Assembly: GCA_944472155.2 (NCBI GenBank) | Contig: OX235271.1 | Coordinates: 89,417,256 to 89,481,255, forward strand | Reading direction: 5' to 3' | Source of the DNA: Trichobilharzia szidati | Taxonomy: Eukaryota > Platyhelminthes > Trematoda > Strigeidida > Schistosomatidae | Length of the DNA: 64,000 bases | Shown here: piece after piece, positions 27,232 to 61,819 of the stretch | Numbering within the stretch: the stretch's first letter is position 1 | Layout: every line of letters starts with the position of its first letter | Notes under the pieces: model-generated | Seen by the model: the letters and a program-made list of their open reading frames with translations, nothing else | Database searches by the model: none | What the model was told of the DNA's origin: nothing | Program-made: the position numbers and the translations under genes

Positions 27232-27375
27232 TTTGTGTGTTGAAGTTTCTCTAGCGATTTGATAGGTTTGGTGGTGTAGGGTTGCTAGTCCTCCGCCCAA
27301 CCGTCCTTCTTTAGCTGGCCTCGGGACCGGCAAGAAAACTAGCAAGCTAGTTGACTAGGCGAGGTTATCTACATA
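27232..27375 (-). repeat. SINE-2 fragment (related to 9240-9400)
   Basis: Shares both conserved blocks with the fragment at 9240-9400. The tRNA head is missing. Confidence 0.55.
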
Positions 27376-28446: not shown

Positions 28447-28454
28447 TATAAATA
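28447..28454 (+). promoter_or_regulatory. Candidate TATA box of the micro-exon gene
   Basis: TATAAATA lies 45-52 bases upstream of the proposed ATG. Start about 25-30 bases downstream would give a 5' UTR of roughly 20 bases. In AT-rich DNA the motif is common, so it is only suggestive. Confidence 0.35.
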
Positions 28455-28498: not shown

Positions 28499-28513
28499 AT
28501 GATTAAGCTTTTG
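28499..28513 (+). CDS. MEG exon 1: start codon, 5 codons
   Basis: ATG ATT AAG CTT TTG (MIKLL), donor gtaagt. This start was chosen because joining to the next exon makes a classic signal peptide in the phase required downstream. Confidence 0.78.
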
Positions 28514-31500
28514 GTAAGTAATGAGCTATGACACTTTTAATATAATATTTTCTTTAAAGATATTGGGTCTCGCTGTCTTTATTCATTGCTGTGACTCTAA
28601 AGTTTTATGTAAAGACAGTAAGTAATTGTTCACAGTCTTACAGTAAGACGCTCATACAATTTAAATTTGCAAACATTTTTTGGGATGAGGGTGGTCGGTG
28701 GTTGATGCTTCTTGAAAACGACGGATTACTTACATCTGATACTTTTTCACTTTAAGTATGAAGATCTTTGGTGGAGTGCAAAAAATGAAGCAAAACGGTC
28801 AACGAACATCTGCGTCCTCTACAGTATGAGGAAAGGAGGTTACTGGACTCAACGTTTTGGAAAATAAATAAATGTTTGAGCGTGATTTATCCTAGGTTAT
28901 GTCATACTGCTTTAGATGAAAATCGTCTGCTAATTATTGCCACATATATGTTCCTTAAAGTGATGGCGTCTACAGAATTCCACTGATCAAATTAACTGTG
29001 CAAATTCGAAGCGGAGAACTTAGTATATTAAACAAATATCAGCTCATTAGGATGCAGATACACCTAATTTAATATCTGATCAAACGCATTTTCCGAGTTC
29101 TATCGTTATGCATCAACAAATTTAGTTACGTCTGCTCAAGCGAATGAATTGGTGCGTCGGTGGCATAGCGATTAGGACTATCGCCGACCATGCACATGGT
29201 CCGGGGTTCGTACGCCGGCCGACGCACTCCTTTACCTCGTTAAGCCAGAAATAACGCTGGTGAAGAGAACAAGTTGGGCATGAGGCTAGCAACCCCATCC
29301 TGTAAAATAAACACTGCTACAGAAACTTCAAGCCACTAGCTTGAAGCCCTATGTTCCACTGGTAACGTGAAGGAATAAAAAGAAAAAGCGAATGAATTGC
29401 TAGGAAATTGAAATCAGTGTGTAGCTGCTTCTTCCTACCTTGAAGTTCCTCTGCAGCGCACATCAGTGATCTCATTTAGGGTCTAACACAAAACGTTCGG
29501 ATTACGAGAGTCAGAATCTTATTGTCAATGAATTCCAATTTCTGTCAATTAGCAATGTACTGTGATTCGTGCGGGCACCTATCCTGAAGGTGGTCAAATC
29601 CATACAAACCAATACCTGAAAACGAACTATTAACTGTTGAATGAAAACTCTGTGAAAGGTTTCGTTCGAATTATTGTTTAAAGCGTTGGGAATGATATTC
29701 TAAGATTCATTTCCTAACAGACGTTCCAAATTATGATTTCTCATTACGTAGACACCTAAAGCTGTACATAATCCTAAACATTCTACTTCTTTTCTCTTCC
29801 AGTATGGTCAGATTACGAGACAGACCCTGTGGTTACAGAACGCGGTAAGTACACAGATGATGATCCATTTATTACAGATTTATGTAATTTCTATATTTAT
29901 CCTTATACAAGAGTTTAAATGATAAGTTAATAAGTGATTTCTAATAATTAGCTATTAAGATAGATTACCAGAAAAATTTCAAATAGTGCTGATATTTTTA
30001 ATACTTTATAATTTGTAGTCGGAATGAAACGAATAACTGCGGATATTTCATTCTGTTATTAGACAGTTCCTACATGTACAATCGGTGGTTTGCGGTAAGA
30101 ACCTATGCAAACTGCAAAAGAAACTATACGATTAAAGACAACAAATTGCGCTTATTACTTGTTATGAGTAATCGGAATCAACTCATCAACCAGTAATGTT
30201 TATCGAGTTACATATTAGATTGTTTTGTTTAATATCGTTTTTAATGTCAGTATATGAGTAACTTTGATCTGAGAACTTTCAGTTCCTGTTGGAATTCTTG
30301 TTTAAATTTCATTATTTGAACTAGTTAATGATTTCAAGTCCTGCTCTAATTTAAGTTCTCTTGAAAATCCTTGCAATCCTATCTGAATATGATAACATTG
30401 GATGAGCATCAAGCATTCTTTCAGTCTTGTTTAGCTTTTACGGACATAATTATTTTCGTCAGCGGCACAGCGGTAAGCTCGCCGCCCATGCACATGGTCC
30501 GGGGTTCGAATCCTGTCTGACGCACACCTGATATCAATGGTCGGCCTGCTAAATTTGGACTACCGATATCACATGCTGAAAATTCCATAGTTGTACAAAA
30601 TATACTGTGTGGAATCAAGACATAATAAGAAATAATAATAAATAGGTTTTAATGAAATCGTTTTGAAAATAAGCAAACAACAAAGGAAATGATGTATGGA
30701 AGTTGTGTGGCCACTTTATAAATTATCAAGGGGAAAAATTTCGCCATCAATGTTTAATATACAAGAATGAAACAGTTAATTGTATACGTCTCTACTATAT
30801 GACCGAGTAAAACTTTCAAAGACTTATATAGCTCTGAATCGAACACAGAGGGATGCAGCAAAAATATCGCGCTTTAGGATAATAAGCATGCATTCCTATG
30901 CATATTTTCAAACTGAATGACTGAACAACTGTTGAAGTGAGTTTTCAGATCAAATCTTCCTTCAAACTTACAATTTTAACGTTAATATTGTAGTATTTAA
31001 ATGAATATAACTTCATCGCTTTAAAATATTGAACATTTTTTGAGCCAATTTTATACTAATGGTACATATTACATTTCTTCAGCTTACAAAATTGTCGGTA
31101 GAAGTTCACGTAAGTAAAACTTTTAAAAATGAGTTTTCAATTATTTTACAAGTTACTCCGATAAAAGTTAAATATGCTTAAACATTTTGTAATAAAAAGA
31201 ATATTAGGATAACATAGAAACAGATCTGCAAGTTGTACATTAGTCATTTAACCTTAATCTTAATTCCATATGTGGTGTGAACGCATTAGATTTGTGAAAA
31301 TTAACTACAAATATGAGTGTGCCTAATACTCATTAACTATTATAAATTCAGATACCTTTCTTTTGAAATAAGTTATTGTGATCTAAATATATTTGATTGG
31401 GAACTTCTGCAAGCCTGGAATAAACAATTGGAAAATTCGGAGAGAACCAATTCACCACTAAGAATGTAGAAATTTGTGGAGTGTAGCAGTGTATAATTCC

Positions 31501-34500
31501 ATGTTAACTGTTCACAATCAAGTCACTGATGAATGCGTCTAGTAAAGGAAATGAATTGAGAAAATAACTTCACCTCCACGTTAGTGTATAGTTAGTAAGA
31601 TTTTTGATTGTGTATTCATAATGATGTTCATACCTAATGTAATAAAGCGATGTAGCTTATCCCATTTCTGAGAATATTATTAGTGAGCATAAATAATATT
31701 TATATGCTACATTTGCAGCGACAAAATGTTTGTGCAGAGACCAGATGATTTTCAACTTTATTTTAATAAATAAGATAGAAGAGATGCCTATTGCTTCTAG
31801 GCTTTCAATGGTTATTTTTCTCATGCCAACCAGTAACAAAACTTGCCACGAGATTTTAAAAGCACTGTTCTTTTGATTCAATTTTTGACTTCATTCATTT
31901 GGAAATACCAACTTTTCTTATTCACAGGTATAACACGCAAACCCTGCAGAGTACATAAAAGTAAGCATACAACTTTTATAATATGAAATAAATAATACTA
32001 CTAAAGAAGTGGCGTGCGTCAGTGGCAAAGGGGTAGAATGCTCACAACCCACGTATGTGGTTCAGGGTTCGATCACCGGCCAACACACTCCTTTACCTCG
32101 CTAAAGCCAGTAATCATACTGGTAAGGAGTGAAGGTTAGGCACGTGGCTAGCAACCCTATCACGTAAAAATAAACACCACGGCTATGGAAGCTTCACAGC
32201 TCTAGTTTGAAGCCGTATGTTCCACTGAGAACGTAAAAGGAATACAAAATTAAAGAAATAACCTTAGGTAAATCAGATAATTTTCTACAAACGTAAATGG
32301 CATACGCTTAATAGATGGTTTTTCCATAAAATCTATTGGACAACATCTGATCTAAAATTATCGGACTTAAACTTCTTTAGTTTAGTACAGGACAGGTCGT
32401 ATGAACGTTCAACTTACTATCACACTTTGGAATAATAATAAACTTACACAAAAGTAACTATGTGAAATACAGTTTCTAAAATTAAGTATCTTAAAGTATG
32501 ACTTCAGGCTTAAGTTGAGTAACCAGTCACAGGTGCTATATTTTTATTCGTTGTGTTCTGAGTGAATCACGGGGCATCAGACTTTATGTTTTCAGTAAGG
32601 GTGGTATTGTTTTTATGCCTAACTTTCCCTCTGTGCCCTGCTCAGTATCGCCAAGTGAACCAGGCGTGGTTTTGAAGTGCGTTGGCTGACAATCACATTC
32701 TGACCTCGAGCGTAGCTGGCGAGTATTGCATCACTGAAACACACCTACTAGTATCCATATTAACTGACGTTATTCTATGAACACATTTTCCTGTCTTGAA
32801 AATTGGATTCTGATTATCTGCCGATCACATAAAATGTTTTGTCTTGTTAACGTCGTATGCATGCAACTGCTTTATACTATATGCTCGGTATTACAATAGT
32901 GTATAAGCGTAAAGTAATTAAGGTAATGTAAGCATATAATCTTATTTTTATAGTAGCAGCTGTATCAAAACCTCTGCGTTTGTAACTAAGTTTCAGTAGA
33001 CATCTTAAGCCAAACTGTATATAATGTTAATTAACATGATTTATAAACTGAAATCTAGATTGTACGGTAGTCATCATTGTTGAGCTGATCAGCTGGTTCA
33101 CAAGGAACCTTAAGGGTGCTTAAATAGTAACTAGGAAGCCGAAAACTAAAGATGTGCTCTCTTGCCTAATGCCATCGCTAAAAATAAATGTAAGGTTTCG
33201 AGAACAGCACACTTTAACAAAATCAGAACAGAAGAATTAGAATCAGAAATTCCACTATAAGAAATGCCTTGTGTGACCTGAAATTGTCATAATCTAAAAT
33301 ATTTCAAAATTATCCAAATGGACAGTCAAAGTGAAACCTTTCGCTACTGACTAAAAGCTGTAGTAATAAGGTCGTACAGTATTAATTTACTCCAGAAGTC
33401 GTGTAAAAAGACAATTAGAAATTTTCAACACTATTAGGTTTGAACATGGAAACATGGGCAAAGTTTATCGTTCCATATTAGTTTGTTTATTAGATGTATC
33501 ACACAGTGAAACAGTATTATTATTTACTGGATGACGTTTCGAACAAAATTTATTGTTCATAATCATATCAATTATAATCACACGACTTCGAAACTTGAGT
33601 TTTATAGTTTTCTTTATCCTTTCCTATTCGTTGTCGCTAGGGTAGTAGAATTTTCCAGACGTCTGAGTGGACAGGTGTTGAATCATTCCTATTACACGTG
33701 TTGGTTCGCAGTTGATTAGATAAACAAAGCTTCCGTTATCAATCTGTCCCTCCATCCTGCTATATCAGTTAGATTTTAAAACTGTCATCTTATCCCATCC
33801 AGCCTTTTGTATGTAGTCCTGTAACTGAACTATTCTCTAGATTTCTTATCTTATTCGGGTCAAATAATCTAGATTTTGCTAGGTTTTTATGCTTGGCTAG
33901 TCTGACTGCCCCTGTTCTACTACTTTGACCTATGTATTTGACCTGACAATCATTGTAGGGTATTAGACAAACTAAATCATTTTGTTTTTAAGGCTTCACA
34001 GGATCCAGTAACCGACAAAGCATGTTTCTAATTGAGTTTGTGGGTTTGAATGCCACTTTAATTCCTGCCTTGTTAAGAATTCTGCGTAGGGTTACCGAGG
34101 TTCCTTCTTTGTATGGAATTACTACTGATGATTTAGATTCCATATTGTTGGTGTTATCATTATCTGGCGCATGTTTGACACGCATGTCGTCATTAATATT
34201 ACTATTATTATTATGATTTTCACTAGTATTACTATCATCATCATCGAATCAACTGCGAACCAACGCGTGTAATAGGAATGATTCAACACCTGTCCACTCG
34301 GACATCTGGAAAATTCTACTACCCTAGCGACGACGAATAGGAAAGGATAAAGAAAACTATAAAACTCAAGTTTCGAAGTCGTGTGATTATAATTGATATG
34401 ATTATGAACAATAAATTTTGTTCGAAACGTCATCCAGTAAATAATAATACTGTTTCACTGTGTGATACATCTAATAAACAAACTAATATGGAACTACTTA

Positions 34501-37500
34501 CTACCACCGTGCCTAAGTTTTACACATATATTAAAGTTTGTCGTTCTTGTGTAAAATGTTAACCGAGAGTTCACTACCAGAGTTGAACCCAACTCCTGAA
34601 TATTTCCTCCGACTGATAATTCAAATCATGCACGACTTTTTCTTAGAAATATTGTTTTCTTCAGTATTTGGTTTATGCAATTACTTGTATATTCTCCTAT
34701 TTAAACCAACTGACGTAAAATTAAATTTTTTAATTCATTTATCAAGAAAAAGTAAAGAAAATTTGTAAAAGTAAGTCGAAAGTTGTGTGAGTTACATTAA
34801 TAAATCTTTTAAATACCCATTGTATGTTTAATTATAGTCGATTTCGGAATTATTACCAGTTTTTGTTTTTGTGCATTAAATCTGTAAAATTTTAAGGAAA
34901 CTTTTACCTTGCACAGCGTTAATTTAAGTAGTCTGATATTGTATAAGATATTTTGAATCTTATAACAGTAGCTCACAACTTTTCTTCTACCACTACGTTT
35001 TTCTAAATGACATACTCTGTTAGGAATGAAATAATTCTTCTAATCTCTTGATTATAATAATGGTCATATTACTCCGTGGAATCTAAGGATGTAATTTACA
35101 CCTTACAATCGACAGTTCATTCATTTTCTTTATCTCTATTTTCTCAAATTCATAATTTAACCTCTGGATTTTTATCCGGTTATTCTCGAAATACATCTAA
35201 CATAAAGTTTCCGATGGTTCTCTAACTGATATCATTTATATTATAGATATTTTATAGAACTTTTAAAGGTAACAACTCAAAATGAGGTCCTAATATCATC
35301 AAAAATAATAAGGTTAACAAAACATTATATTTCATCCACCCGTTGAGTACTATTGTAACAGCAGAAGGCAAGGCATGGAAGCCAGGGTATATATATACAT
35401 ATATATATATGACCATTTTCATAGCTATAAAACATGAAAACGAATATCCAGCATTCTAACCGGGATGTATTCAGTTAAGTCGAGGTAAAATGTCATCTTT
35501 AATGTGTTTCATTATTGTTATTATTATTATATTAATTTTCCTCACAGTTGGACGGCTTTTTGATGTAGAATACAAGTGAGGGGTTTATGTAATCCAACGA
35601 ATAGTATGCATTCAAGGTTATGGGTGCGTTCGCACCCCATTGTCACTGTTCTTAGCGTTTGCATTTATTGCCGGGTAAAATTTGTTTGAAATACCATTGA
35701 AATACAACTCAATAAAATAAACTAATTAGAATAGAACAAATTCATATGTTCACACATTTAAATGTCAGTAAATTGTAGGGTTATGTAAAAATTTAAAACC
35801 CATGTTTTCTTCTTTTTATAGAGGATAGTGAAGGTGATGTAAAAATAGTTAAAAGTAAGTCTAATAAACCATCATAAATTAGTATGTACTGATAAGTGAA
35901 TGAAAGAGGGCTACTCTTCCAACAAGTGGAAGATCATATTTCATGACAATACAATCAGAGAATTTTATTGAATTGACATGGCACTGCTAAACTCTCTACA
36001 TACTGATATATATATATATATACGGCACAGAGGTAGATTGCTCACCAACTAAACAGGTGGTTCGGGGTTTGATCACCGGCCAACGCACTCCTTTACCTCG
36101 CCAAGCCAGTAATCATACTGGTAAAGAGTGAAGCTTGGGCACGAGTCTAGCAACCCCATCACGTAAAAATAAATACCACGGCTATGGAAGCTTCAAAGCT
36201 CTAGTTTGAAGCCCTATGTTCCACTGAGTATGTAAAAGTATAAAATGATCGGTAATTATATTAGAATTGTTTGTACTTCACTGTGAATGAAATTCAGTAT
36301 CATATTGTGTCTCCTGCCGTTTTGCTGTATGACGCTCATAGGTTTTCAATTTTTTGTTTGTTGCGACTTGACTGGCGTGATTTTGATCACGAATTGGTGT
36401 CGCTTAATGATTTACTCTAAATTAAGTAATACTTGACAGTTCTTTTTCCTATTTACTGACTCATGAGTATTAAGCACCCATAACCCAACCAGGAATTAAA
36501 CCCAGGCCCTTCAGTTTACAAGGCGAGCTCGCGGAACATTCAGCCTCTCAGACGGAATCCAATGGCCCATTGATTCTAACTTCTTCAACATGAACACCAG
36601 CCAAAGTTATCAGTGAGTATTTGTTCTCACATTCAACCTGGTAAACTACCACTGGTCATGACTGATATTAATCCGTGATCACACTTGAAGCTAATAGCTT
36701 TATCGAAGTAATATTACTTCTCTACACTACAACAGTTTAGGTCAATTTTCAACAAACATACTTTTCAATTTATAAACTGTTCAGTTATTATTGTGGAGTA
36801 AGAAATTTTATATGGTATTTTTACTACTTGTTACTAATTGTACGCTTTGTAGCAACTAATTTGCCGTTACTGATTTATTTTCTAAAATTTAGAAATACGA
36901 TGGAGGAAAATTAAAAAAAGTATGTGAACTATTATACTTGAAAGATTCGCTGTATTAAATGCTCTTTTATATTTGTAAACTGTATTGTAAATCATTCACA
37001 GAAGTTAGTATTCGATAATTTAGAGAAAAAATTGCATTACAAATCTTTTAGATATTATTAAAGTAGGCTCATATAAAACTTTACTTGAAAATACCTAACT
37101 TACAATCACTTAGTTATCAGACTGCATTATTTTCAAATCACTCGCACTAAACAATTATCCCTCCTTTTTAATTGACGGTTGTAGTTCAAGAATCAACCCA
37201 GAAACCAACCACTACCAAAGCTTCAGTGAGACGTGAGTTATGATCTTTTAAATTCTGCTGTGTTACAACTGATTTAATCAGAAAATTCAGCTTAAAAACT
37301 TCTCTGTGATAACAAATGAAAAAATATATAGTATAGTATGTATCAATTGTAGAAAACGGTAAAAAGACTTAACATCCACACGGTATGAACACACAAATGT
37401 CAACAAACATTAACTATGCCGAAACAAACATTAAATGAAAAGCAATGAAATCTAAGGAAAATGAGCAATACGAATGAGGGCAAAGTAAATTATAGTTCAC

Positions 37501-40500: not shown

Positions 40501-43500
40501 TCAAAAGCGATGAATAAGGGAGAGAAATGGTGTTAGGAAGATTGCTTCACACCGACACACACCGACTTCGTACTCACTCCTCAACACAAACACTGTGACG
40601 CACGTGACACGCATGCACGCACACACACACACACACAATCACACATTCTCATGTCCCAAATATCTCCGTTTCGAGTGAGCACAGTCTGTCGGTGACAAGA
40701 GTGAGAGTGCGGTGTGCCTAGCCTACACCAAGCCACTGCACTCCATGTTCTCTCGACATCACGACGCTTCTCAGCAACAGAGGCAGCCACAGCAGCAGCC
40801 GCCGCAGTTATGCGCACAACATCCAGTGTAGTTGTAGTCCTGGTGCAATGCAATGCAATTCCATCGTCATCACTGTCACAACTCTTGACGACTGGACTCA
40901 GATCCCCACTCCACTCCTCTCCCACTCACAACACTGTCCGAACACGTCATCTCAACAAACACCATCACCATGCATTCAATTCTTCCTCTCACTCTTCTTC
41001 ACATCGTCAGTGCTCTCGCCTAGTCGACTAGCTTTCTGTAGATTCACGAGACCCATCACCAAGTGAACTCGTGCACCGAAACTCACTCAACCTGTCTGTC
41101 TCTACACACGCTCGTCACTGCACGAGTCCACATCACTTCTCCATCATCCCTCCCTCTAGCCCTGTGTTTGTTTTTCCTCTCTTCACAGCAACCACTGTGC
41201 CGCCCACTACTACAACCAAGGCTACGACAACGACGACGCCTGTTCCAAGTGAGTTCACTTATCAATTATGTGAATTTTCAAAAGCGATGAATAAGGGAGA
41301 GAAATGGTGTTAGGAAGATTGCTTCACACCGACACACACCGACTTCGTACTCACTCCTCAACACAAACACTGTGACGCACGTGACACGCATGCACGCACA
41401 CACACACACACACACAATTACACATTCTCATGTCCCAAATATCTCCGTTTCGAGTGAGCACAGTCTGTCGGTGACAAGAGTGAGAGTGCGGTGTGCCTAG
41501 CCTACACCAAGCCACTGCACTCCATGTTCTCTCGACATCACGACGCTTCTCAGCAACAGAGGCAGCCACAGCAGCAGCCGCCGCAGTTATGCGCACAACA
41601 TCCAGTGTAGTTGTAGTCCTGGTGCAATGCAATGCAATTCCATCGTCATCACTGTCACAACTCTTGACGACTGGACTCAGATCCCCACTCCACTCCTCTC
41701 CCACTCACAACACTGTCCGAACACGTCATCTCAACAAACACCATCACCATGCATTCAATTCTTCCTCTCACTCTTCTTCACATCGTCAGTGCTCTCGCCT
41801 AGTCGACTAGCTTTCTGTAGATTCACGAGACCCATCACCAAGTGAACTCGTGCACCGAAACTCACTCAACCTGTCTGTCTCTACACACGCTCGTCACTGC
41901 ACCAGTCCACATCACTTCTCCATCATCCCTCCCTCTAGCCCTGTGTTTGTTTTTCCTCTCTTCACAGCAACCACTGTGCCGCCCACTACTACAACCAAGG
42001 CTACGACGACGACGACCTGTTCCAAGTGAGTTCACTTATCAATTATGTGAATTTTCAAAAGCGATGAATAAGGGAGAGAAATGGTGTTAGGAAGATTGCT
42101 TCACACCGACACACACCGACTTCGTACTCACTCCTCAACACAAACACTGTGACGCACGTGACACGCATGCACGCACACACACACACACACACACAATTAC
42201 ACATTCTCATGTCCCAAATATCTCCGTTTCGAGTGAGCACAGTCTGTCGGTGACAAGAGTGAGAGTGCGGTGTGCCTAGCCTACACCAAGCCACTGGACT
42301 CCATGTTCTCTCGACATCAGGACGCTTCTCAGCAACAGAGGCAGCCACAGCAGCAGCCGCCGCAGTTATGCGCACAACATCCAGTGTAGTTGTAGTCCTG
42401 GTGCAATGCAATGCAATTCCATCGTCATCACTGTCACAACTCTTGACGACTGGACTCAGATCCCCACTCCACTCCTCTCCCACTCACAACACTGTCCGAA
42501 CACGTCATCTCAACAAACACCATCACCATGCATTCAATTCTTCCTCTCACTCTTCTTCACATCGTCAGTGCTCTCGCCTAGTCGACTAGCTTTCTGTAGA
42601 TTCACGAGACCCATCACCAAGTGAACTCGTGCACCGAAACTCACTCAACCTGTCTGTCTCTACACACGCTCGTCACTCCACGAGTCCACATCACTTCTCC
42701 ATCATCCCTCCCTCTAGCCCTGTGTTTGTTTTTCCTCTCTTCACAGCAACCACTGTGCCGCCCACTACTACAACCAAGGCTACGACGACGACGCCTGTTC
42801 CAAGTGAGTTCACTTATCAATTATGTGAATTTTCAAAAGCGATGAATAAGGGAGAGAAATGGTGTTAGGAAGATTGCTTCACACCGACACACACCGACTT
42901 CGTACTCACTCCTCAACACAAAGACTGTGACGCACGTGACACGCATGCATGCACACACACACACACACACAATCACACATTCTCATGTCCCAAATATCTC
43001 CGTTTCGAGTGAGCACAGTCTGTCGGTGACTAGAGTGACAGTGTGGTGTGCCTAGCCTACACCAAGTCACTGGACTCCATGTTCTCTCGACACCAGGACG
43101 CTTCTCAGCAACAGAGGCAGCCACAGCAGCAGCCGCAGTTATGCGCACAACATCCAGTGTAGTTGTAGTGCTGGTGCAATGCAATTCCATCGTCATCACT
43201 GTCACAACTCTTGACGACTGGACTCACATCCCCACTCCACTCCTCTCCCACTCACAACACCGTCCGAACACGTCATCTCAACAAACACCATCACCATGCA
43301 TTCAATTCTTCCTCTCACTCTTCTTCACCTCGTCAGTGCTCTCGCCTAGTCGACTAGCTCTCTGTAGAGTCACGAGACCCATCACCAAGTGAACTCGTGC
43401 ACCGAAACTCACTCAACCTGTCTGTCTCTACACACGCTCGTCACTGCACGAGTCCACATCACTTCTCCATCATCCCTCCCTCTAGCCCTGTGTTTGTTTT

Positions 43501-46500
43501 TCCTCTCTTCACAGCAACCACTGTGCCGCCCACTACTACAACCAAGGCTACGACGACGACGCCTGTTCCAAGTGAGTTCACTTATCAATTATGTGAATTT
43601 TCAAAAGCGATGAATAAGGGAGAGAAATGGTGTTAGGAAGATTGCTTCACACCGACACACACCGACATCGTACTCACTCCTCAACACAAACACTTTGTTG
43701 CACGTGACACGCATGCACGCACATACACAAAACTACTTTATCATATTCTGAAATTTTTGCCTTTCTTGCTCTTCCCGTATGTCCTGCTGGAGTTCCTGTG
43801 TTCTTTTTGGATTTGTGTCTATGTTTTTCTGTTTCACTTTAAATGTTACTTTTAAGTAGATTTTGGTCGGAACTCATATCTTATCTGCTTCTCTCCGTCG
43901 TCATTAACAGCCTTTGTCTTCACCTTCTTTATATCGAGGTGAAATATATCTGGTTTTTAATGTGCCCTTCAGCCGTTATCCATATTGCTACATATATATC
44001 CTTGCGCTTGCTGCTGGTCGACGAATCATTGAAAGCGCAGAATTATAAGGATAGCTCTCCGTTCTCAGTCATTTCTACGAACGACAGCCTCTCGACGCAC
44101 GATGAATTCTCTTCCTGTGTTCTTTGCTCACACTGACACTATACGGGATGCTGTTCCATTACTCTTTATGGTTGCCTGTGAAAATCTCCCTTAATGTCTT
44201 ATTCCACGTTGATTTTAGAATTGTGCGTAGCATTGGATGATTGTGACTTTCCTTCCTTTTGAGTTGAATATGAATGTAATTATCCTGCAGGAGGAGGTTG
44301 GTTCCCAGTGCATTAGGGTTTTGGCTGCTACTTACGACATCATGATAGCCACTCACTGACTCAGTGTGCTCGTAGTTGTCGTCTGGGTGACCAGACCGGA
44401 GTAGATTACTGACCCTACAGCTGACAATTTGGATAATCCACATCCATTTCATCTGCTCTCGCAGATACCCAGCACTTTTATGCCATATCTTCGCATTCCG
44501 TTTGCCATCTGGGCATGCTTCCCAGTCTCGTATTATTAGTTGAAATAACCGTCGGCGTGAACAATTAGCATTTCATATTAGTGTAAACCACTACTTAACA
44601 TTATTGAGTTGGTTAAACATTCACTGAGAATAGTTTGAATGTAGAAAATGTCACATACGATTTGTCTAACTAAGCCTAGTGGGCAAGAAATATTGAGAAA
44701 TTGAAATCCAATCAAAATGGCTGTATTAGTAACGTCGCATACGAAAATAAGTGGCTGGAGAATATGCGGATAAAGATGAGAGCATAAAAGACCATAAGAA
44801 TGCTAACAGATACAGAGATAACTTATTTCAATGGATGAGTTAGTATTCAAAATATTTCATTATATCAAGTACTGACTTGCTTATTATAATTTCATCTACT
44901 TTATTACAGTACCAGCAACCCGGAAATTCGTTCCTCGTAGACCGTTTAGAAGACGTAAGTCACAATTTTACGAATGCACTTTAAAACATAAGTTTGTTAA
45001 CTAACTAAATTTCTATAAACATTATTGAAAGCGAAACAAATGCCAACTGCCACAGTGTGTAGTATATTCACTTAAATTCACACTATAAACAGACATTGGT
45101 CTAAATTGTGTTAATTCAAATGAAAGTTACGGGACCATTTACCGTTAAACGAAAACATGGAAATAAGATAAACCTTAAGGAAACATAAACCATACATTAA
45201 TTGACAGTAAAACACGAAAAGGACATACGAACAAGAGGATAGCCATACTGATCATCTGTTCATTTAAAATCACATAGGTGGATGGTGTAAAATACTGATT
45301 AGTATAAATAAATGGAAATCTTTAAAGGTGGATGACCAGTAGTACTGAATACATTACTGAGCTATATGCGATCCCACTGCTGAAATCCTGTTCCAGTATT
45401 GAGGAAATCTTTAGTCAGGGGATCAAATATCGAGGGTGTTCAAAATAAAAAAGCCTCACTGGAAATAATCGCTAAAGAAAGGAATACTTTGGCTGAAGAA
45501 AAACTTCAGAAGTCGAAAGCTGTGTTATTTTTTACTAACAACACTAACGCAATTAGTTTTGACAAAGAGAATGTTCCACTTTTACCAGGGAGAATGAAGT
45601 TCCATCTGACTTGATCTAAGTAAATTAACAAATCTCATACATTCACTTTATTAATTTCTCTTTCTTTTTTCCAGCAAGATATGGGCCATATCCACAACCA
45701 AGTATGTTTATTTTTCTCTCATCACTGAAATTAAATTTGTTTTACTTTGATTACACATATGACTAATTTAATGTTAACTCCTGCACAACTGTGCACCTAT
45801 GGGTGATTCCAACCGATGAGGTTAGATTCCGTTTACGTGAAGGATGCTGTTAATAAATTCAGTGTTCCTCATATGCTCACACACCCTCTGCCTTCAAAAG
45901 GCTGAGGCGCATACAATTTACGGACACACTTGTGTGTGACAATAATGCTGATTCCATAGGCCTCCTTCCACAATGATAACCGGTCTCATCTCGAATTCCT
46001 GAGTATCATATTTTCTGATTATGTATGTTATGTTTCTGATTATGTATCTCAGTCGGATGGGACAACTCAGATAGGACATGTCTGGTTGTTCTGTTCACAG
46101 AGCATTCACAACTCTTGTGAGAATTAGTGATGACCAGACGTGATGGGAAATGAGTAATCTGTAGCATGGAAAGCATGGAATAGGAAATGTGCGATTGGGT
46201 TGCTGGAAACGAGGTCAGTAATGTGGAGGTACTGAATAAGATAGTCTTTATTCTTTTTACTAAACACGAAAGCCACCAAATGAGATACTGATAGTGTGTC
46301 AACGGAAGGACAATTGATTAGTTAGAGATATTCATCAATTTCTTGGGGGTGCTACATTAATTTGCGGAAACTCTTGCTGAATAACTAAACAGACGTCAGA
46401 AACAATACGGTATAAAGCTATTTGCTTCTTAGTTAAGGTAATTGTTATTCATATGAATACGTCCAAACAAAATGACAACTTCTAAAGTAACCTACAACAG

Positions 46501-49500
46501 AAGTGATAATAAGAACAACTGTCCGTGAACCTGACTTTATTGAAAGAATGCGAGTCGTATATTAGTTAAAAGCTATTCGGCAGTCCGATAATGAGAGTTA
46601 AGCAACTCAGTAGTGTTGTGTTTTACCGATAATGATCAAGACAGATGGGAATATTGTGATCAACTGAAAAGTCTGATATGAGTAAACGAAAGCCGAGATA
46701 AAAAGCACAACTATTTTTAGGTATACAACTACAAGTCATATAATAATGAAGAAATTCGCAAATGACATAGAAATTCCGACTGTATATTCGACAAAAATCA
46801 AAACTGTGCACTTCGTTTGACAACAGATGAATAAATACAGAATCTTGTTACAGAAGTCCACAAAAAATCAGTAAGACATAATCATCGTGAAATTTCCATT
46901 CATGTAGAACATTATACCGATTGTTATAAGGTTCTGTGCCACACAACAAGATATAAAACAGTTAATAATACATTCATCGATGAGTGTTTTTTACTTCTCA
47001 TACATTGCAAGGTTCATATCGACTTATCATACTGTCTTTCATTCTTCTTCATTTGACAGTTGACTTTGTGCCAGTAGTCGCGATTCCACAACCTGTTATA
47101 CAGCCAAGTGAGTTTCTATTCCTCTAATCAATGAAGTGGAGGATGTGGCAAGTTTACCTTTGTAATAGATCTGTTGAAGCATGAATTTGGTGCCGATTAG
47201 CATTCCACTATACTCTATTTTTATTTATACATATTATTCGAGTTGGCTAACAGTATTTTCTAAATTTCCTTTGTTTTTAGTTAATACTTTGCCTGGGTCA
47301 CGTCTTTTCCATCCAATTGTGAATCGTACGTTTCCGTTGTGTTATTGTACCTCTCGTTTTCGTGTCTTGTTTAGAATCTGTAGATTTATGTACTTTACCT
47401 ATGAGTTCATTGATCTATTTTCTTAAGTTATAAGTGTCATTAGGGAATGTTCCATAGGAACCTTTTCTAAGTACTTGTTTCTATTCTTTACAGGGTTGTA
47501 CAGTTTGAACAGTATATGTTTCACTAACATATGGAAGATGCCTTTATTGTACTTTATAGGAGATTAACCTCAACAGCATTGTTGATCACACTGATTTCGT
47601 TTTATTCCAGTCTTATCTTTGTGTAACACCTCAAATAAGATACTCCGAAAACTTCACTTGGCTATCTAGATCAGAAAGTTAGAGGCTTTATCAAATGTTC
47701 CACTATTTTAAAGCGACGCTACACGTATTGTCTGTGGATTTCTTTTTATCCGTTAACAAATTGATCTTATTAGAATGCTTACAGTGAAATACAGAAAATC
47801 ATTTCTTGCATCACACTTACGTATAAGGTATGGGCTTCGAAAGATATTCTACTTCTGAATGGATTTCGTAGAAGGTTCATCAATTAGTGTATGATTTATG
47901 GTTACGAAATTCCAGTACATACAATTTTCAACCTAATGAAGACAGAAAGTAGCGCACAGTGCAGTGAATGCCTAATGAGGTGATAAAAATGTAACCAATT
48001 CACATTTCACCATTTTACACTACACCATTATGCAATATTGTAACAATTCGTAATGAACAAAACGATCAGTCACACATCTCTTAATGCAGATATGTTTTCC
48101 TGTGTGACTGCTATTATTTTACTAGTTACATAAATAAATAGTTATGGTAGGTAAAATTTAAAATCAAGAGATATTCAATAACGAGATATCTTGTTTATGG
48201 ACATAATATTGCCAGTGTAGAATCATTCAGTATTGTAAATAATTAAGACGTGGAGAAATGCTTACGTCTGAAGTGTCATACTAGATCAAAATGTAGAAGT
48301 TTCTGTGTGCTAAAGTAAAAGTTGATTATTACACTTCTGCCACAGTAACATTTGTCAAGCTAGCCATCCCCATATATTCTCTTCCTTCCGAATACACTAG
48401 TACTTATATGTATATAACCTGCAATTATTATTGCTGTTATAATAATGATAATAATTTTGTCCACCGTAAAGTTGCGATATTTGGGGAAATATTGAATTTT
48501 ACAGCTCAATCCACAAAACCAGAAAAACATTTAATTTCGTCTCCAGATGCTTCTATTTGCACCGACTAAAGAAAGAGCTGGCTAATGTTTACCAATTCAA
48601 ACATATCCGTAAAATGTAGATTTAAAAATACACCACCAGAACAATTTTCATATGTATACAGCCTCATGCACAAACAAGACCACCTATTTCAGGGGAAAAC
48701 TGCAGACACAAATAGAACTAAGAAATTTAACACAGATTGCATAAGGAAAGACGAATGAACACGAAAAGACAGTGGAAATTTTCAACAAAAATAATAATAA
48801 TGATATTAAAATAGAAATAATAACTGCTTTCCTTTCTTTCACAGTTCACATAATGCCCCGAATTTCCTTCCATAGATATGATTCAGGATCAAGTGAGTAA
48901 ACAGTTTTCCACTCAAAAGAGTCTTTCAATTAATTCCTGTGTTTATATGTAGATGCCTGTAAAAAGCATATATCTGTACAAACCAGAATATTGCATGATA
49001 GATACAATGTATGATATAACTAAGAGTGATAAACATTTAACAAACTCATGAGGATTCGAGCAAAATAAAGTTCTTAAAACTATTAACATGATCACTTGAC
49101 ACGATTATTACAGACAAAAAGTAAGACAAAATCGAAACACAAAAGACTGAATAAAGGATATTGGAATGAAAGTGAAAAGTGCTGGGACCATGTAAGCAAG
49201 TTAAGAAAAGTCAAAGTCAAAGTGAAGTGTAAACCACGAATAAGAAAAAGAAATGAAAAATGAGAAAACATGGATAATATGAATAGATATAATATCTTGA
49301 TTAGAAAAGTTCACCTAGGAAACGAGGCAATACAAACAAGAATGAAGATAATCACAAACATACACACGTGATAATTTAAAGTATATAGTCCTAATATAAC
49401 AAGATTCCAGAAAAAATACTAGAAAAACTGATATAATATTGAAATAAAACTGATCCAAGAGATAATAAGTAGAGCGAAATATTGCAAGTGAAAATCAAAC

Positions 49501-51816
49501 AGTAAATATCAGGGCACAAGAAAATACATGCATTGAAATAAACGGTGAATTAATAGAGCAAGGAAAAACAATTCGCCGGGACACCTCTGCTGAAATCTAA
49601 AAGCGGAAGAATACCAATAAGACATAAAAAAAACAACCAAAATAAAATTCCAAGGAGAAATCAAACATAGAAGGAGACACCTGAGATAGTCTTAACATCA
49701 ACAGTTAGTTATTCACGCCTCCATCATCGCATCATTGCATACACTTGATTTCCAGTAGTGCTGAATAATGTTCCACTCGGTTGATTTGAGAACTCATTGA
49801 GAACATTCGACATATATATTGACTTCAGTCCCCTGATTTTGTCTCTTTCTTGTTTTTCAGAGGGATATCGACGTGTTCGCCAACCAGGTAGGTGGTTTGT
49901 TTTCTCCTCAGTGAAATGTATCATTCCTCCGATTTCAATGTGATTGTGCGTTTGAGAGTTGTGCATAGTTGTAGAAGAGAGAGTGAGAATATGCGAATAC
50001 ATTTAGGATTGGATGCAGATGCAATCAACAGGCAGGCAGAGAGACAGTCAGACTCTCATTTCACTCGTGGTTGTGTGTGTTTATCCGATTGAATTATTGT
50101 TTACGTTTGTCTTGTGTGTGTGTGCGTGTGTGTTCGTGTATGTGAGTGAGTGAGTAAACTGAGTGAGGACGAGCATGTGTTCGCCTTAGAATTGAGCTCA
50201 CTGTGACATTCAGCAGTATCCACAGCATGTACTTGTTTACTGTGATTCAATCTGCGATTTCCATTCCCTCACAAGCTGAAATTCTCATTCCGATTAATCG
50301 AATTGTCTTTCTCACTTCTCCATTTGACAGTTGACATTTTGCCAGTAATCGCGGTTCCTCAACGATTTCCACAACGCAGTAAGTCATTGGTTTTCCAGTC
50401 AATCAAGTGTTTTCTTTTCATTTCGGTGTTTTCATGTCGATATCTGAGTAAATGCATAAATACGCCAGTTAACCGACAGGTTAGATAACAATCTGGTTCA
50501 CGTGCTTCGAATTGATCGAGATTCTCGCATGTGTTTGTTGACATTGAACTCGCTGAAGTATTGATATGGATGTGGATGTTGTGAGACAGTGTCTGCATTC
50601 ATTTGAAATTTGTTTGTGTATACTGTAACTGATTTGTGAGAAATTCCGAAAGGATACCCGACTTCTGCATGTTTTGTAGGAAAGGAATGAAATCCATAAT
50701 CGGATGTGATTGATGACTAGGACATCTAGAGTCTCACTGATTGTATCCGTTGTCATATTCATGTCAGCTGTTTGCACTTATCACTTACACGCAGGACATG
50801 GACGGCGAATTCGAATTCCGTAGAATCACACCGGAGGCGTTTAGTGTATTCACCACCTACACTGAGTCTTCATCTGTCCATATACACGTTAGTCAACACA
50901 CACACAGACACAAATGTACTCACACCATGAGGCATTCTGAACAAAGGTGGGCTGAGGGAAGGAAGACAGATTGGAAGTCAGATGTTCAGTATTGATTGAC
51001 TGATTGATTGATTGATTACATTGTCTGACAACTAACTGATTGAATGTCTGCAATTTCTGTGTCTTTCTGCAGGACCAGTTTATGAGAAATTCGCTGTTCA
51101 CAGGAGAGCTGGAAGACGTAAGTCACATTCATCGACAATCCAGTGCATTACATCACTTCCAATTTATTTCAATTCACTGACATTTAATTGTGCTTCTCTC
51201 AATTTACTTTCATCTCATTAATATCGTCTCATTATTCACTTCAGTACTCTTCATTCTTCACTAAGTCGCCACCAGTTTATGACTAGAATCAGGAGTCCTG
51301 TCATTTTTTCGGTGGAGACTGAATTCTATCAATCAATTTTGTCCATGGTTTCCTTCCGGTCGTGATTCCATCAATTCGTTTTTTTCATTTTATTTTATTT
51401 TTTTTTCTCAGGATATCCAGTAGTTCATATTTCCAGACACATCAATAGACGTAAGTCGCACATTCAATTGGCATGCCAAGTAACTCACTCCTTTTGGTGA
51501 TTATGATGCCTTCTGTCTTCTGGAAATTAAATTATCCTTCGTTTATTTATATTCTTAACTTTTCAAACTGAATAATTTATATATCCCTATAACTTATTCA
51601 AAATAAGAATAATTAATGTGAACATATGTTTTCAACAAACAATTTACAACTGTACAGACTGAAGAGGGAGGGACTGAGAACAATGGTGCCCTTTAATTAT
51701 TCTTGTTTTTGAACTGTACTTTCCCTAAGGCAAAGTAGGAATAAATGTGACAGAGTCTCTTTTTTGCAGAAGTCGAAGAGTTTCTTAATCTACACTCAGA
51801 ATGTATTCAGGCCTGA
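28499..51816 (+). CDS. Micro-exon gene (MEG) for a secreted Thr-rich, mucin-like protein; full exon model
   Basis: Exons: 28499-28513, 28560-28617, 29803-29844, 31083-31109, 31928-31960, 35822-35854, 36893-36919, 37185-37232, seven Thr exons (38860-38919, 39637-39693, 40412-40471, 41189-41248, 41968-42025, 42747-42803, 43515-43571), 44910-44954, 45675-45701, 47060-47107, 48845-48892, 49861-49887, 50331-50378, 51073-51117, 51412-51450 and 51770-51816. Intron 1 is phase 0 and all later introns are phase 1. Every internal exon from 29803 on is a multiple of 3, except the fifth Thr exon (58 bp). Leaving that one out, the sum is 1008 bp: 335 codons and a stop. Layout: signal peptide (1-16), charged region (17-94), Thr/Pro tract (95-211), Arg/Pro-rich tail with repeats (212-335) and a Cys near the end. 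Schistosome MEG products are secreted, often from the oesophageal gland or tegument, and Thr tracts suggest O-glycosylation. The specific MEG family is not identified. Confidence 0.85.
28514..28559 (+). other. 46-bp mini-intron inside the signal peptide
   Basis: Starts gtaagt, ends tttctttaaag. It is far smaller than the other introns of this gene (about 0.3-3.9 kb). Very short 5' introns are known in schistosome genes. Confidence 0.75.
28560..28617 (+). CDS. MEG exon 2: signal peptide core, 58 bp
   Basis: Continues the signal peptide with ILGLAVFIHCC, then DSKVLCKD; donor gtaagt. Length 58 moves the intron phase from 0 to 1, the phase of every later intron. Confidence 0.8.
29152..29395 (+). 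repeat. SINE-2 copy in MEG intron 2
   Basis: tRNA-like head, 'actcctttacctcgttaagccag' body and tail 'ttgaagccctatgttccactggtaacg', with an A-rich end. Confidence 0.8.
29803..29844 (+). CDS. MEG exon 3, 42 bp
   Basis: Acceptor ctcttccag, donor gtaagt. Reads WSDYETDPVVTER in the phase set by exon 2. Confidence 0.82.
30455..30645 (+). repeat. SINE-2b copy in MEG intron 3
   Basis: tRNA-like head ('cggggttcgaatcctgtctgacgcac') and the 2b body ('gatatcaatggtcggcctgc ... tgtgtggaatcaag') with an A-rich end. Confidence 0.78.
31083..31109 (+). CDS. MEG exon 4, 27 bp
   Basis: Acceptor atttcttcag, donor gtaagt. Reads YKIVGRSS with split codons at both ends (Ala, then Arg). Confidence 0.78.
31928..31960 (+). 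CDS. MEG exon 5, 33 bp
   Basis: Acceptor tattcacag, donor gtaagc. Reads ITRKPCRVHK. Confidence 0.78.
32010..32250 (+). repeat. SINE-2 copy in MEG intron 5
   Basis: Complete copy: tRNA-like head ('cagtggcaaaggggtagaatgc ... gggttcgatcaccggcc'), body and RTE-like tail ('gtttgaagccgtatgttccactgagaacg'). About 90% like the copy at 36021. Confidence 0.82.
33470..33717 (+). repeat. Inverted repeat arm (248 bp) beside a Penelope-like fragment
   Basis: Reverse-complement partner of 34247-34494, with very few differences. It lies in MEG intron 5. The ORF inside (FRTKFIVHNHINYNH) is a shadow repeated in the other arm. Confidence 0.88.
33760..34190 (-). mobile_element. Penelope-like GIY-YIG endonuclease fragment
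   Basis: On the minus strand: VVIPYKEGTSVTLRRILNKA, then 'GIKVAFKPTNSIRNMLCRL' and 'LIPYNDCQVKYIGQSSRT'. This is the linker and endonuclease of a Penelope-like element, a family distinct from the two others in the window. It is enclosed by the inverted arms. Confidence 0.72.
34247..34494 (-). repeat. Inverted repeat arm (248 bp), partner of 33470-33717
   Basis: Together the arms enclose the Penelope-like fragment. They are probably head-to-head partial ends of that element. Confidence 0.88.
34747..34770 (+). CDS. Candidate extra MEG micro-exon, 24 bp
   Basis: Between atcaag and a strong donor gtaagt. Phase 1 in and out; reads KKVKKIC with a split Lys at each end. It fits the frame between exons 5 and 6 and their Lys-rich character, but the acceptor tract is poor. 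Confidence 0.38.
35340..35412. repeat. Dispersed repeat plus (TA)n
   Basis: 'attgtaacagcagaaggcaaggcatggaagccagggtatat' recurs inverted at about 53775-53815. A TA microsatellite follows. Confidence 0.5.
35822..35854 (+). CDS. MEG exon 6, 33 bp
   Basis: Acceptor ctttttatag, donor gtaagt. Reads DSEGDVKIVK. Confidence 0.78.
36021..36240 (+). repeat. SINE-2 copy in MEG intron 6
   Basis: Head 'cggcacagaggtagattgctc ... gggtttgatcaccggcc', body 'ctttacctcgccaagccag' and tail 'gtttgaagccctatgttccactgag'. It begins at the end of a (TA)n tract. Confidence 0.8.
36380..36690 (-). repeat. SINE-1 copy in MEG intron 6
   Basis: On the minus strand the tRNA-like head 'gaggctgaatgttccgcgagctcgccttgtaaactgaagggcctgggtttaattcc' is readable, with the SINE-1 upstream extension. 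Confidence 0.62.
36893..36919 (+). CDS. MEG exon 7, 27 bp
   Basis: Acceptor aaaatttag, donor gtatgt. Reads IRWRKIKK, strongly basic. Confidence 0.7.
37185..37232 (+). CDS. MEG exon 8, 48 bp
   Basis: Acceptor gttgtag, donor gtgagt. Reads QESTQKPTTTKASVR. The 'PTTTKA' core resembles the Thr exons that follow, so exon 8 may be their ancestor or a diverged sister. Confidence 0.78.
37300..38525. other. A-rich intron segment
   Basis: Strong A excess on the + strand. A 98-codon Lys/Ser/Asn-rich open frame (38167-38463) has no recognisable family and is probably a product of composition. Confidence 0.35.
38713..38733 (+). CDS. Candidate second micro-exon of the repeat unit, 21 bp
   Basis: In every unit 'ctttctgtag' is followed by 21 bp in the right phase (SRDPSP with split codons at both ends) and then gtgaac. 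It would precede each Thr exon. The donor is weak, so it may not be used. Equivalent copies lie about 147 bp upstream of each Thr exon. Confidence 0.3.
38860..38919 (+). CDS. MEG Thr exon, copy 1 (60 bp)
   Basis: Acceptor tcttcacag, donor gtgagt. Reads TTVPPTTTTKATTTTTPVP with a split codon at each end. Confidence 0.85.
39637..39693 (+). CDS. MEG Thr exon, copy 2 (57 bp)
   Basis: As copy 1 but one Thr codon shorter (TTVPPTTTTKATTTTPVP). Confidence 0.85.
40412..40471 (+). CDS. MEG Thr exon, copy 3 (60 bp)
   Basis: Same sequence as copy 1. Confidence 0.85.
41189..41248 (+). CDS. MEG Thr exon, copy 4 (60 bp)
   Basis: Same sequence as copy 1. Confidence 0.85.
41968..42025 (+). pseudogene. MEG Thr exon, copy 5 (58 bp, frameshifted)
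   Basis: The ACG run differs, so the exon is 58 bp, not a multiple of 3. If included, copies 6 and 7 are read in another frame and a TAG is met in the exon at 44910. Splice sites are intact. It must be skipped, be non-functional, or be an assembly error. Confidence 0.75.
42747..42803 (+). CDS. MEG Thr exon, copy 6 (57 bp)
   Basis: Same as copy 2. Confidence 0.85.
43515..43571 (+). CDS. MEG Thr exon, copy 7 (57 bp)
   Basis: Same as copy 2. It lies in the most diverged, truncated unit. Confidence 0.85.
43735..44565 (-). mobile_element. RTE-clade LINE endonuclease remnant next to the array
   Basis: On the minus strand, decayed endonuclease motifs appear in order: YGIKVLGICESRWNGCG (about 44515-44465), 'VIYSGL', 'NSKGRKVTIIQCYA' (about 44260-44220), 'NGELSL.FCAFND', then 'VAIWITAEGHIKNQIYFTSI' (about 43990-43930), comparable to 'KATWISPDH.TENQIDHI' of RTE proteins. 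Many stops are present. It lies in the intron between Thr copy 7 and exon 10. Confidence 0.68.
44910..44954 (+). CDS. MEG exon 10, 45 bp
   Basis: Acceptor ttattacag, donor gtaagt. Reads PATRKFVPRRPFRR. It resembles exon 16 in length, end (GAAGAC) and donor context. Confidence 0.8.
45399..45614 (+). other. Unassigned open frame of coding-like composition
   Basis: 71 codons with no ATG start, on the MEG-gene strand, containing KKASLEIIAKERNTLAEEKL and DKENVPLLPGRMKF. Balanced composition without low complexity suggests a fragment of a once-coding sequence, perhaps a retrocopy. It is not in frame with the MEG. Confidence 0.22.
45675..45701 (+). CDS. MEG exon 11, 27 bp
   Basis: Acceptor tttttccag, donor gtatgt. 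Reads RYGPYPQP, with split Pro at the start. Confidence 0.78.
47060..47107 (+). CDS. MEG exon 12, 48 bp
   Basis: Acceptor catttgacag, donor gtgagt. Reads DFVPVVAIPQPVIQP. Clear paralogue of exon 15, including the acceptor sequence. Confidence 0.82.
47494..47511 (+). CDS. Candidate extra MEG micro-exon, 18 bp
   Basis: Strong acceptor (ttctattctttacag) and a fair donor (gtatat). Phase 1; would read RLYSLN between exons 12 and 13. Confidence 0.33.
48845..48892 (+). CDS. MEG exon 13, 48 bp
   Basis: Acceptor ctttctttcacag, donor gtgagt. Reads HIMPRISFHRYDSGS. Confidence 0.8.
48905..49700. other. A-rich intron, nothing recognised
   Basis: Strong A excess on the + strand, similar in style to 37300-38525. 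No coding frame. Confidence 0.4.
49861..49887 (+). CDS. MEG exon 14, 27 bp
   Basis: Acceptor cttgtttttcag, donor gtaggt. Reads GYRRVRQP. Probable paralogue of exon 11. Confidence 0.78.
50100..50160 (+). repeat. (TG)n / (GTGA)n simple repeat
   Basis: TG-rich run followed by GAGTGAGTGAG in the intron after exon 14. Confidence 0.7.
50331..50378 (+). CDS. MEG exon 15, 48 bp
   Basis: Acceptor catttgacag, donor gtaagt. Reads DILPVIAVPQRFPQR. Paralogue of exon 12. Confidence 0.82.
51073..51117 (+). CDS. MEG exon 16, 45 bp
   Basis: Acceptor ctttctgcag, donor gtaagt. Reads PVYEKFAVHRRAGR. Paralogue of exon 10. A (GATT)n repeat lies just upstream. Confidence 0.8.
51412..51450 (+). CDS. MEG exon 17, 39 bp
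   Basis: Long T-rich tract and ctcag acceptor, donor gtaagt. Reads YPVVHISRHINR. Confidence 0.8.
51770..51816 (+). CDS. MEG terminal exon 18 with stop
   Basis: Acceptor cttttttgcag. Reads VEEFLNLHSECIQA, then TGA at 51814-51816. The acidic, Cys-containing end differs from the basic exons before it. No AATAAA follows closely; the next is at 53511. Confidence 0.75.
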
Positions 51817-52025
51817 AGCCGTATGTTCGACTTGGAGATCAAATGATTGAAAAAGCTGAAGATTTAGTCAGAGATTATTTTCATATCACAAGCTTATTAG
51901 AATGGTATTTAGATTCAGGTTACTATGTTGATTCAATCATTCTCCTCTTTGACAAACAGACAAGCCTCAGTAGTTCCAATGCAAAGTGTTTTGAGCAAAT
52001 TATACATGAATATATTTATTACTGA
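51801..52025 (+). other. 74-codon ORF overlapping the MEG stop codon
   Basis: Starts at an ATG inside the MEG terminal exon in another frame. Balanced composition (YVRLGDQMIEKAEDLVRDYF, then 'SLLEWYLDSGYYVDSIILLF'). It could be a chance ORF, a fragment of another gene, or a downstream ORF of the mRNA. No family recognised. Confidence 0.28.
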
Positions 52026-52604
52026 ATACGCTTTCTCTTTGCTTATCTTCTGTAGCTTCTGTAAGTTTCAACTTTCCAAAATGTGTATCTGTTAGTATTC
52101 TAGAATTCACCTAAAATTCAGGATACCGCATTTTAAGGTTTGAGTTTACGTTCATTTTGTATGATTTTGTTAATTATTTTGTGTTTTACAGCCTAAATTA
52201 TGTTTTGATAATTTGATATTTGAAGTGCTTGATTTTATTTCATTTAGAGACGTTTTTCCAAACCCCTTTCCTTATTCTGGTCATGGTAATGTTCTGTCTA
52301 GTTGATTTCATTTCACTTTAGCTTATCTTTGCTTTCACCGTCGTAATTTTAATTTCTGACATTACCTGACCCAATTCCAATCTCTTGATACTAATTCACC
52401 TGCTTAATAATGTTTTTGTAATTCTGTAATTCACCTACATCAACTCAGTTCCTTCAGATATTATATTTAGTTATTCTATCCATAGGTCTACCAGCAGAGC
52501 AATCTTCAGTACCGCTTAACACAATTTCATGTAATACAAGTTTGTTTCGTCGTCAGTTAGAAAACTATTGAAAATTAATTTCCAAGAGTATTTTTGTGAG
52601 GAAA

Positions 52605-52950
52605 ATCATTCTGATGCTCGCTAGTGACCGGCTGTAGCTCGAAGTTGCCTGGAATTCTCGGAAGAAATCTTGACCAGTGGAGTCCAGCCGGTTGAGAGTG
52701 AGGACAAATGCTCGCCAATGAAACTGGCTAGTGCGAGTCGGCCAATTATCATGCAAAAGAAGTTGGATATCATAGACCACTGAGTCAGGCCACAGCTTGC
52801 CTTGTAACTGCAAGTTCCTAGGTTCAAACGCCAGTCGGTGAGTGCTGCCAATGAGTCCCAAACCAGGACGAAACATTCATCCAGTACTCACTGGTTTTCA
52901 TTGGTTCTCTGACTGATATCAATCCGTGATCAAACTTGAGACAAACTAAG
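52605..52950 (+). repeat. SINE-1 copy with hammerhead-like core
   Basis: Long version with upstream extension, tRNA-like head ('aggttcaaacgcc') and core CCAATGAGTCC-CAAACCA-GGACGAAAC at about 52848-52874. It would lie in the MEG 3' UTR if polyadenylation is at 53511. Confidence 0.72.
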
Positions 52951-53510: not shown

Positions 53511-53516
53511 AATAAA
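53511..53516 (+). terminator. Candidate polyadenylation signal of the MEG
   Basis: First AATAAA on the + strand after the stop codon, 1.7 kb away. A nearer non-canonical signal (for example AATATA at about 52010) is just as possible. Confidence 0.28.
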
Positions 53517-53519
53517 AAC

Positions 53520-55050: not shown

Positions 55051-55204
55051 AACATTCGTGACAGTGAATGTTCAATAGATGTTTTATCGAGAACTAAGGA
55101 CAAACATCTTGATGCTATTTTATATGAGCTATGAACTAGATTTGACTGAATACTTCCATATAAGTCTACATACATCTACTTTACACCGTATTTTCAATTT
55201 TCAG

Positions 55205-61585: not shown

Positions 61586-61589
61586 CTCA

Positions 61590-61815: not shown

Positions 61816-61819
61816 AAAA

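Follow-up and report, generated by a model that had tools for sequence, protein, structure and literature searches.

Schistosome micro-exon genes (MEGs) give protein variants through exon skipping and are expressed in host-facing glands or epithelia. They are described as genes with an N-terminal signal peptide in which the majority of the coding region consists of very small symmetrical exons (PMC4350168). The upper limit for a micro-exon is set at 36 bp in one source (PMC10767053) and at 81 bp in another, which also gives the introns of S. mansoni MEGs as 0.1-5 kb long and shortening towards both ends of the gene (PMC10526429). One of the best comparable members is MEG-4.1 (antigen 10.3), which carries Thr/Pro repeats and is O-glycosylated in S. 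mansoni; its S. japonicum form was reported bound to leucocytes in the oesophagus, and MEG-4.2 is described as having no repeats (PMC3723592). For the bird schistosomes, MEG transcripts of Trichobilharzia with no close relationship to the S. mansoni MEGs known so far are on record (PMC6362228).

The locus described here lies in a window of 64,000 nucleotides, i.e., the whole stretch of DNA that was analysed. On the + strand, between positions 28499 and 51816, it comprises 25 AG/GT-bounded segments, eight of them before a block of repeats (E1-E8), seven Thr-rich (R1-R7) and ten after the repeats (T1-T10). Internal segments have AG directly upstream and GT directly downstream, segment lengths range from 15 to 60 bp, an ATG at 28499 starts the gene and a stop codon ends at 51816. 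Twenty-four segments are usable and sum to 1053 nt (351 codons including the stop), or to 1077 nt if a further exon of 24 bp (X) is added. According to the exon lengths, the first of the 23 introns in this 24-exon chain is in phase 0 and the remaining 22 are in phase 1; between E3 and T9, 21 exons are usable (R5 excepted), all of them multiples of three in phase 1, and X is likewise symmetric. The frame is open without inner stop from E1 to R4 (173 codons) and again from R6 through to the stop in T10. We regard the locus as very probably a real gene, split into some two dozen very small exons and ordinary in kind but sizeable, whose full model is apparently new. An initial annotation had proposed AG/GT-bounded exons of 15-60 bp with one start and one stop and with all introns after the first in phase 1, and both statements are borne out by the located exons, their flanks and 22 of 22 introns. 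Its count of 23 usable exons and 1008 bp, however, falls short of the actual 24 and 1053 nt by one 45-bp exon, a length shared by T1, T4 and T8.

Compared with the published MEG features, the locus has 24 usable exons of 15-60 bp, small and largely symmetric. All of them qualify as micro-exons under the 81-bp limit, whereas 17 of the 24 are too long for the 36-bp limit, under which seven and exon X qualify. The listed chain has 25 introns, of which 24 (173-2786 bp) fall into the range given for S. mansoni and the first (46 bp) lies below 0.1 kb, as does the alternative intron between T4 and T4b (49 bp). The shortening towards the ends is only rough, as the last three introns measure 694, 294 and 319 bp, while a length of 1185 bp is already reached by the second.

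The gene opens with E1 (28499..28513), which contributes 15 bp of coding sequence with the start codon and a phase-0 donor. By position, a TATAAA hexamer at 28447..28452, 46 nt from the ATG, is a possible core promoter. E2 (28560..28617, 58 bp) sets phase 1 and encodes a hydrophobic, signal-peptide-like run that immediately follows the start codon. The exons E3 (29803..29844, 42 bp), E4 (31083..31109, 27 bp), E5 (31928..31960, 33 bp), E6 (35822..35854, 33 bp) and E8 (37185..37232, 48 bp), the last of which begins the Thr/Pro-rich part, were recognized from their letters and flanks. Between them lie the Lys-rich exon X (34747..34770, 24 bp) and the basic exon E7 (36893..36919, 27 bp). With X included, the mature head has a pI of 10.3.

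The centre of the gene is a tandem array with approximate limits 38542..43717, in which a unit of 768-779 bp, consisting of one Thr-rich exon of 57-60 bp with its flanking intron, occurs in seven copies. Identified by letters and flanks, the corresponding exons are R1 (38860..38919, 60 bp), R2 (39637..39693, 57 bp), R3 (40412..40471, 60 bp), R4 (41189..41248, 60 bp), R5 (41968..42025, 58 bp), R6 (42747..42803, 57 bp) and R7 (43515..43571, 57 bp). Computed over 330 bp upstream and 170 bp downstream of each repeat exon, mutual identity amounts to 98.7-99.6% among R1-R6 and to 96.1-96.9% for R7 against the rest. The six usable repeats contain 63 Thr in 111 residues. R5 has the same splice signals as the other copies; reading through it shifts the frame and leads to stops in T1, in line with the initial annotation, whose open frame leaves the 58-bp copy out. 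Across the array, none of 61 exon columns is substituted (four are gapped) and 25 of 500 intron columns are, a difference too small for any claim of selection on the exons. The G+C content reaches 0.49 at 40001-44000 versus 0.31-0.40 in the other 4-kb bins. The array is also strongly biased for C over G, its + strand being G-poor (GC skew -0.32 at 40001-44000), unlike the rest of the window. Tandem Repeats Finder returned no rows at a maximum period of 500, which is below the size of the array unit.

Downstream of the array, the tail is encoded by T1 (44910..44954, 45 bp, the start of the basic tail), T2 (45675..45701, 27 bp), T3 (47060..47107, 48 bp), T4 (47281..47325, 45 bp), T5 (48845..48892, 48 bp), T6 (49861..49887, 27 bp), T7 (50331..50378, 48 bp), T8 (51073..51117, 45 bp), T9 (51412..51450, 39 bp) and the final coding exon with the stop, T10 (51770..51816). 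An alternative terminal exon, T4b (47375..47433), has its own stop and encodes a hydrophobic end. The tail (pI 11.6) is hydrophilic on average, with a GRAVY of -0.48. Three pairs of tail exons, T3/T7 (z 9.6), T1/T8 (z 4.3) and T2/T6 (z 3.4), rank highest among 136 exon pairs, and the likeness of the duplicates T3 and T7 extends into their intron edges; the tail exons are the older duplicates. Second acceptors which keep phase 1 occur inside exons at 29812, 44916, 47078, 51079, 51421 and 51424, and small in-frame variants are possible there. Among the polyadenylation-like hexamers (two types sought in the 1.7 kb past the stop), only one was found, at 53329.

Protein searches with the exon peptides gave a single match at E <=1, an unnamed predicted protein of 109 amino acids from Trichobilharzia szidati, encoded on a contig of 216.9 Mb and here called P0001, with E values of 1.5e-10, 2.6e-6 and 0.26 depending on the search. 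P0001 maps onto eight collinear segments of the window, namely E1, E2, X, E7, one repeat exon of the 57-bp type (R2, R6 or R7), T1, T4 and T4b, with 106 of 109 residues in agreement and all seven junctions, including that of E1 and E2, at AG/GT sites. E2, X and T1 differ by one residue each, and T4b is identical in 19 of 19 residues; the three differences would mean another species, allele or paralog. P0001 uses a frame-keeping subset of the exons, although itself a prediction, which does without E3-E6, E8, T2-T3, T5-T10 and every repeat copy but one and terminates on T4b. At the level of sequence, it supports the boundaries of six exons of the initial annotation and adds X and T4b. The description of the earlier model as complete is not supported, as it had missed X and T4b and as P0001 joins a different subset of exons with another end. 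The accompanying expectation that ORF-based annotation would miss the gene is half right, as the T. szidati annotation had caught the unnamed 109-aa product. Because P0001 omits 13 listed exons and most repeat copies, a single transcript with all exons is putative, and the all-exon gene is one among several possible readings. The fold of P0001 is predicted with low confidence beyond N-terminal helices (mean pLDDT 58.9 from the single sequence, with one helix at residues 3-18), which is in keeping with disorder. No Pfam family was found in the head (E1-E8), the tail (T1-T10) or P0001, and a PDB sequence search with the tail as query gave no match.

Since AG and GT are common dinucleotides and the exons had been picked by hand, the pattern might in principle be no gene at all, and splice-like signals might merely have arisen by chance near a Thr-rich tandem repeat that has nothing to do with them. 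A rule-based scan (11 or more pyrimidines in 16, YAG, GT followed by three or more of the four further consensus bases, exon size 15-66 bp), whose thresholds were chosen with the exon model already known, returned 25 symmetric candidates on the + strand of 28600-51450. Phase 1 is open in 20 of these, phase 0 in 14 and phase 2 in 10, so that, as is usual for short exons, many candidates are open in other phases as well. Of the 20 phase-1-open candidates, 19 are exons of the model, with one other, and the scan misses E2, E7, E8 and X. After removal of the repeat array, 19 symmetric candidates remain; phase 1 is open in 14 of them (13 model exons plus one other), phase 0 in eight and phase 2 in four. 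In 300 dinucleotide shuffles of 1-kb blocks, again without the array, a mean of 2.15 phase-1-open candidates was obtained (s.d. 1.47, maximum 8), and none of the 300 reached 14. Outside the gene, the + strand holds one such candidate in 1-28400 and four in 51850-63900, and the - strand three and none, respectively. On the - strand of the gene region, the scan finds 26 symmetric candidates. Six of them are open in phase 1 and 20 in phase 0, the latter probably owing to the seven-fold repeat. A second scan demanded GTRAGT exactly at the donor but was more lenient towards acceptors; it yielded 24 hits, comprising 17 model exons, six in-frame inner acceptors of model exons and one hit elsewhere. 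The lone extra scan candidates at 44219-44242 and 36601-36612 were not accepted as exons. The exon pattern and its phase coherence exceed chance. With the shuffles and the seven of seven P0001 junctions at the same sites against it, an explanation by chance is extremely improbable.

The same scans bear on whether the short form E1-E2-X-E7-R-T1-T4-T4b could be the sole real product, the other exons being relics or parts of rare or other transcripts. For this speaks that the short form, as P0001, is the only annotated relative found. Of the non-repeat exons, however, P0001 lacks 13, and 11 of these pass the rule scan in an open phase 1, E8 passes the GTRAGT scan and T10 has a good acceptor. Such retention of splice signals and phase argues against relics, which would be expected to lose them, and we consider this alternative improbable.

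The exon structure and composition support the earlier proposal of a schistosome-type MEG with a signal-peptide-like start, a Thr-rich centre and a basic Pro/Arg tail, and the locus is most likely a MEG of a Trichobilharzia-type bird schistosome rather than of a human schistosome, with a presumably secreted Thr-rich product. Its layout raises the further possibility of a bird-schistosome ortholog of MEG-4.1 whose sequence has diverged past recognition, as a signal-peptide-like start, Thr/Pro repeats from tandem exons and a basic protein are reported for MEG-4.1, too (PMC3723592, PMC4015677), and MEG-4 orthologs have been reported in T. regenti (PMC5825161). The suggested search of the exon peptides against schistosome proteins did find P0001, but no Schistosoma protein at E <=1 among limited candidate sets (the 7989 candidates sharing most words in one search, 10 and 7 in the others), under a procedure which requires shared 5-residue words and similar length and which remote kin can escape. 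Published C-terminal 15-mers, one from S. mansoni MEG-4.1 and one from its MEG-4.2, matched the head, the tail (500 shuffles each) and T4b (2000 shuffles) no better than shuffled sequences, with a best p of 0.16. That value belongs to a resemblance of T4b to the MEG-4.2 C-terminus noticed by eye, which was therefore rejected. A match of the MEG-4.1 repeat peptide to the head (p = 0.012) was the lowest of 26 comparisons and of low complexity, and no homology is claimed from it. In T. regenti, MEG-4 reportedly retains the C-terminal motif (PMC5825161) and the sequence of one transcript has been found to match MEG-4 of S. mansoni (PMC4749378), so that MEG-4 would still be recognizable within the genus. 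Moreover, the hydrophilic tail of the present gene differs from the strongly hydrophobic one described for MEG-4.1 (PMC3723592). Orthology to MEG-4.1 thus seems unlikely.

For this MEG, a mode of action can be sketched. The hydrophobic start suggests that the product is secreted. By analogy with MEG-4.1, the duplicated 57-60-bp exons would supply Thr/Pro-rich blocks, probably heavily O-glycosylated and disordered, and the other micro-exons would contribute basic ends, with Pro and Arg abundant in the tail, which may stick to negatively charged host surfaces or glycans; a sugar-bearing spacer with basic ends could then adhere to host cells. Since all exons from E3 to T9 other than R5 are in phase 1 with lengths divisible by three, they are skippable with the frame kept, and skipping of single exons or groups could give many variants from one gene, with the frame-breaking R5 presumably harmless when skipped. 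Two ends would be available, T4b for a short hydrophobic-ended form and T5-T10 for a long basic-ended one. Going further, the locus might represent a MEG family that only bird schistosomes have. In such a family, the number of copies in the tandem array of 0.78-kb units would set, like a dial, how long the O-glycan-bearing spacer is, the alternative last exon would switch the secreted protein between its short hydrophobic-ended and long basic-ended forms, and skippable broken copies would let the array mutate freely while the gene survives. We offer this only tentatively and rather doubt it.

The surrounding sequence is rich in repeats. Positions 1-5082 recur at 94% identity near the end of the window (1-2726 with 55051-57725 and 2628-5082 with 57981-60491), and the second copy of this approximately 5-kb repeat stops at 499 consecutive N (60492-60990). 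The pair may have arisen by a segmental duplication, with the MEG enclosed between copies spaced about 55 kb, or may be two copies of one long element; if the former, further gene copies may follow. Matches to the Hammerhead ribozyme type I occur at 15525-15574, 20984-21029, 57949-57997, 57568-57612 (-) and 52842-52887, one above the Rfam gathering score and four below, and a self-comparison of the window places them inside mutually matching stretches, i.e., a dispersed repeat family. A twister-P1 match at 27297-27371 (-) scores far under the gathering threshold. Fold-back elements with arms 98% alike are found at 33470-33721/34243-34494, in the intron before X, and at 25622-25878/25991-26247. 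Related short repeats lie in introns and beyond (29152-29383, 32014-32248, 36024-36248 and 61715-61814), the first three with starts that by eye resemble tRNA-derived SINEs; ARAGORN reported no tRNAs. Open frames are present at 12983-14331, 18217-18597 and 23606-23956. Weak Pfam matches below the cutoff were obtained for reverse transcriptase (12983-13348) and integrase (18217-18594), and 13745-14068 and 23606-23956 resemble by eye the GIY-YIG end of Penelope-like elements, with no Pfam family matched.

With some 26 micro-exons in its model, the gene would be a large addition to the MEGs from the avian schistosome branch, and the locus is a candidate source of the recorded MEG transcripts of Trichobilharzia that lack close S. 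mansoni relatives (PMC6362228). With exon units nearly identical to one another and one that breaks the frame, its array would additionally allow a direct test of whether symmetric exons buffer damage. Among the papers listed on Trichobilharzia micro-exon genes and on the assembly and annotation of the T. szidati genome, none bears a title on a gene of this type and no name for it was found, which does not imply that it is unpublished.

Among the known systems, P0001 is the closest in sequence, sharing eight segments in the same order and seven junctions, and differs by three residues, a single repeat unit and the T4b end. MEG-14 of S. mansoni and S. japonicum is similar in its repeats and their predicted O-glycosylation (PMC3723592) and differs in a predicted membrane anchor, whereas the long form here has by eye no such hydrophobic segment past the start. 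With MEG-4.1/antigen 10.3 of S. mansoni and S. japonicum, the gene shares a signal-peptide-like start and hydrophilic Thr/Pro repeats, and with the S. mansoni form also the basic character (predicted pI 9.38) and the tandemly repeated exons (PMC3723592, PMC4015677), from which the Thr/Pro-rich repeats arise here as well. In limited searches, neither the conserved hydrophobic C-terminal motif nor sequence similarity to MEG-4.1 was found. The repeats themselves differ in length, with 81 bp in S. mansoni and 8 amino acids in S. japonicum versus 57-60 bp here. In addition, the S. mansoni MEG-4.1 motif is reported to be coded by exons 10, 13 and 16 (PMC10767053), which suggests a three-exon repeat there as opposed to the single-exon repeat of the present gene. 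On the sequence at hand, the best reading is an unnamed bird-schistosome MEG with a layout most like that of MEG-4.1/antigen 10.3.
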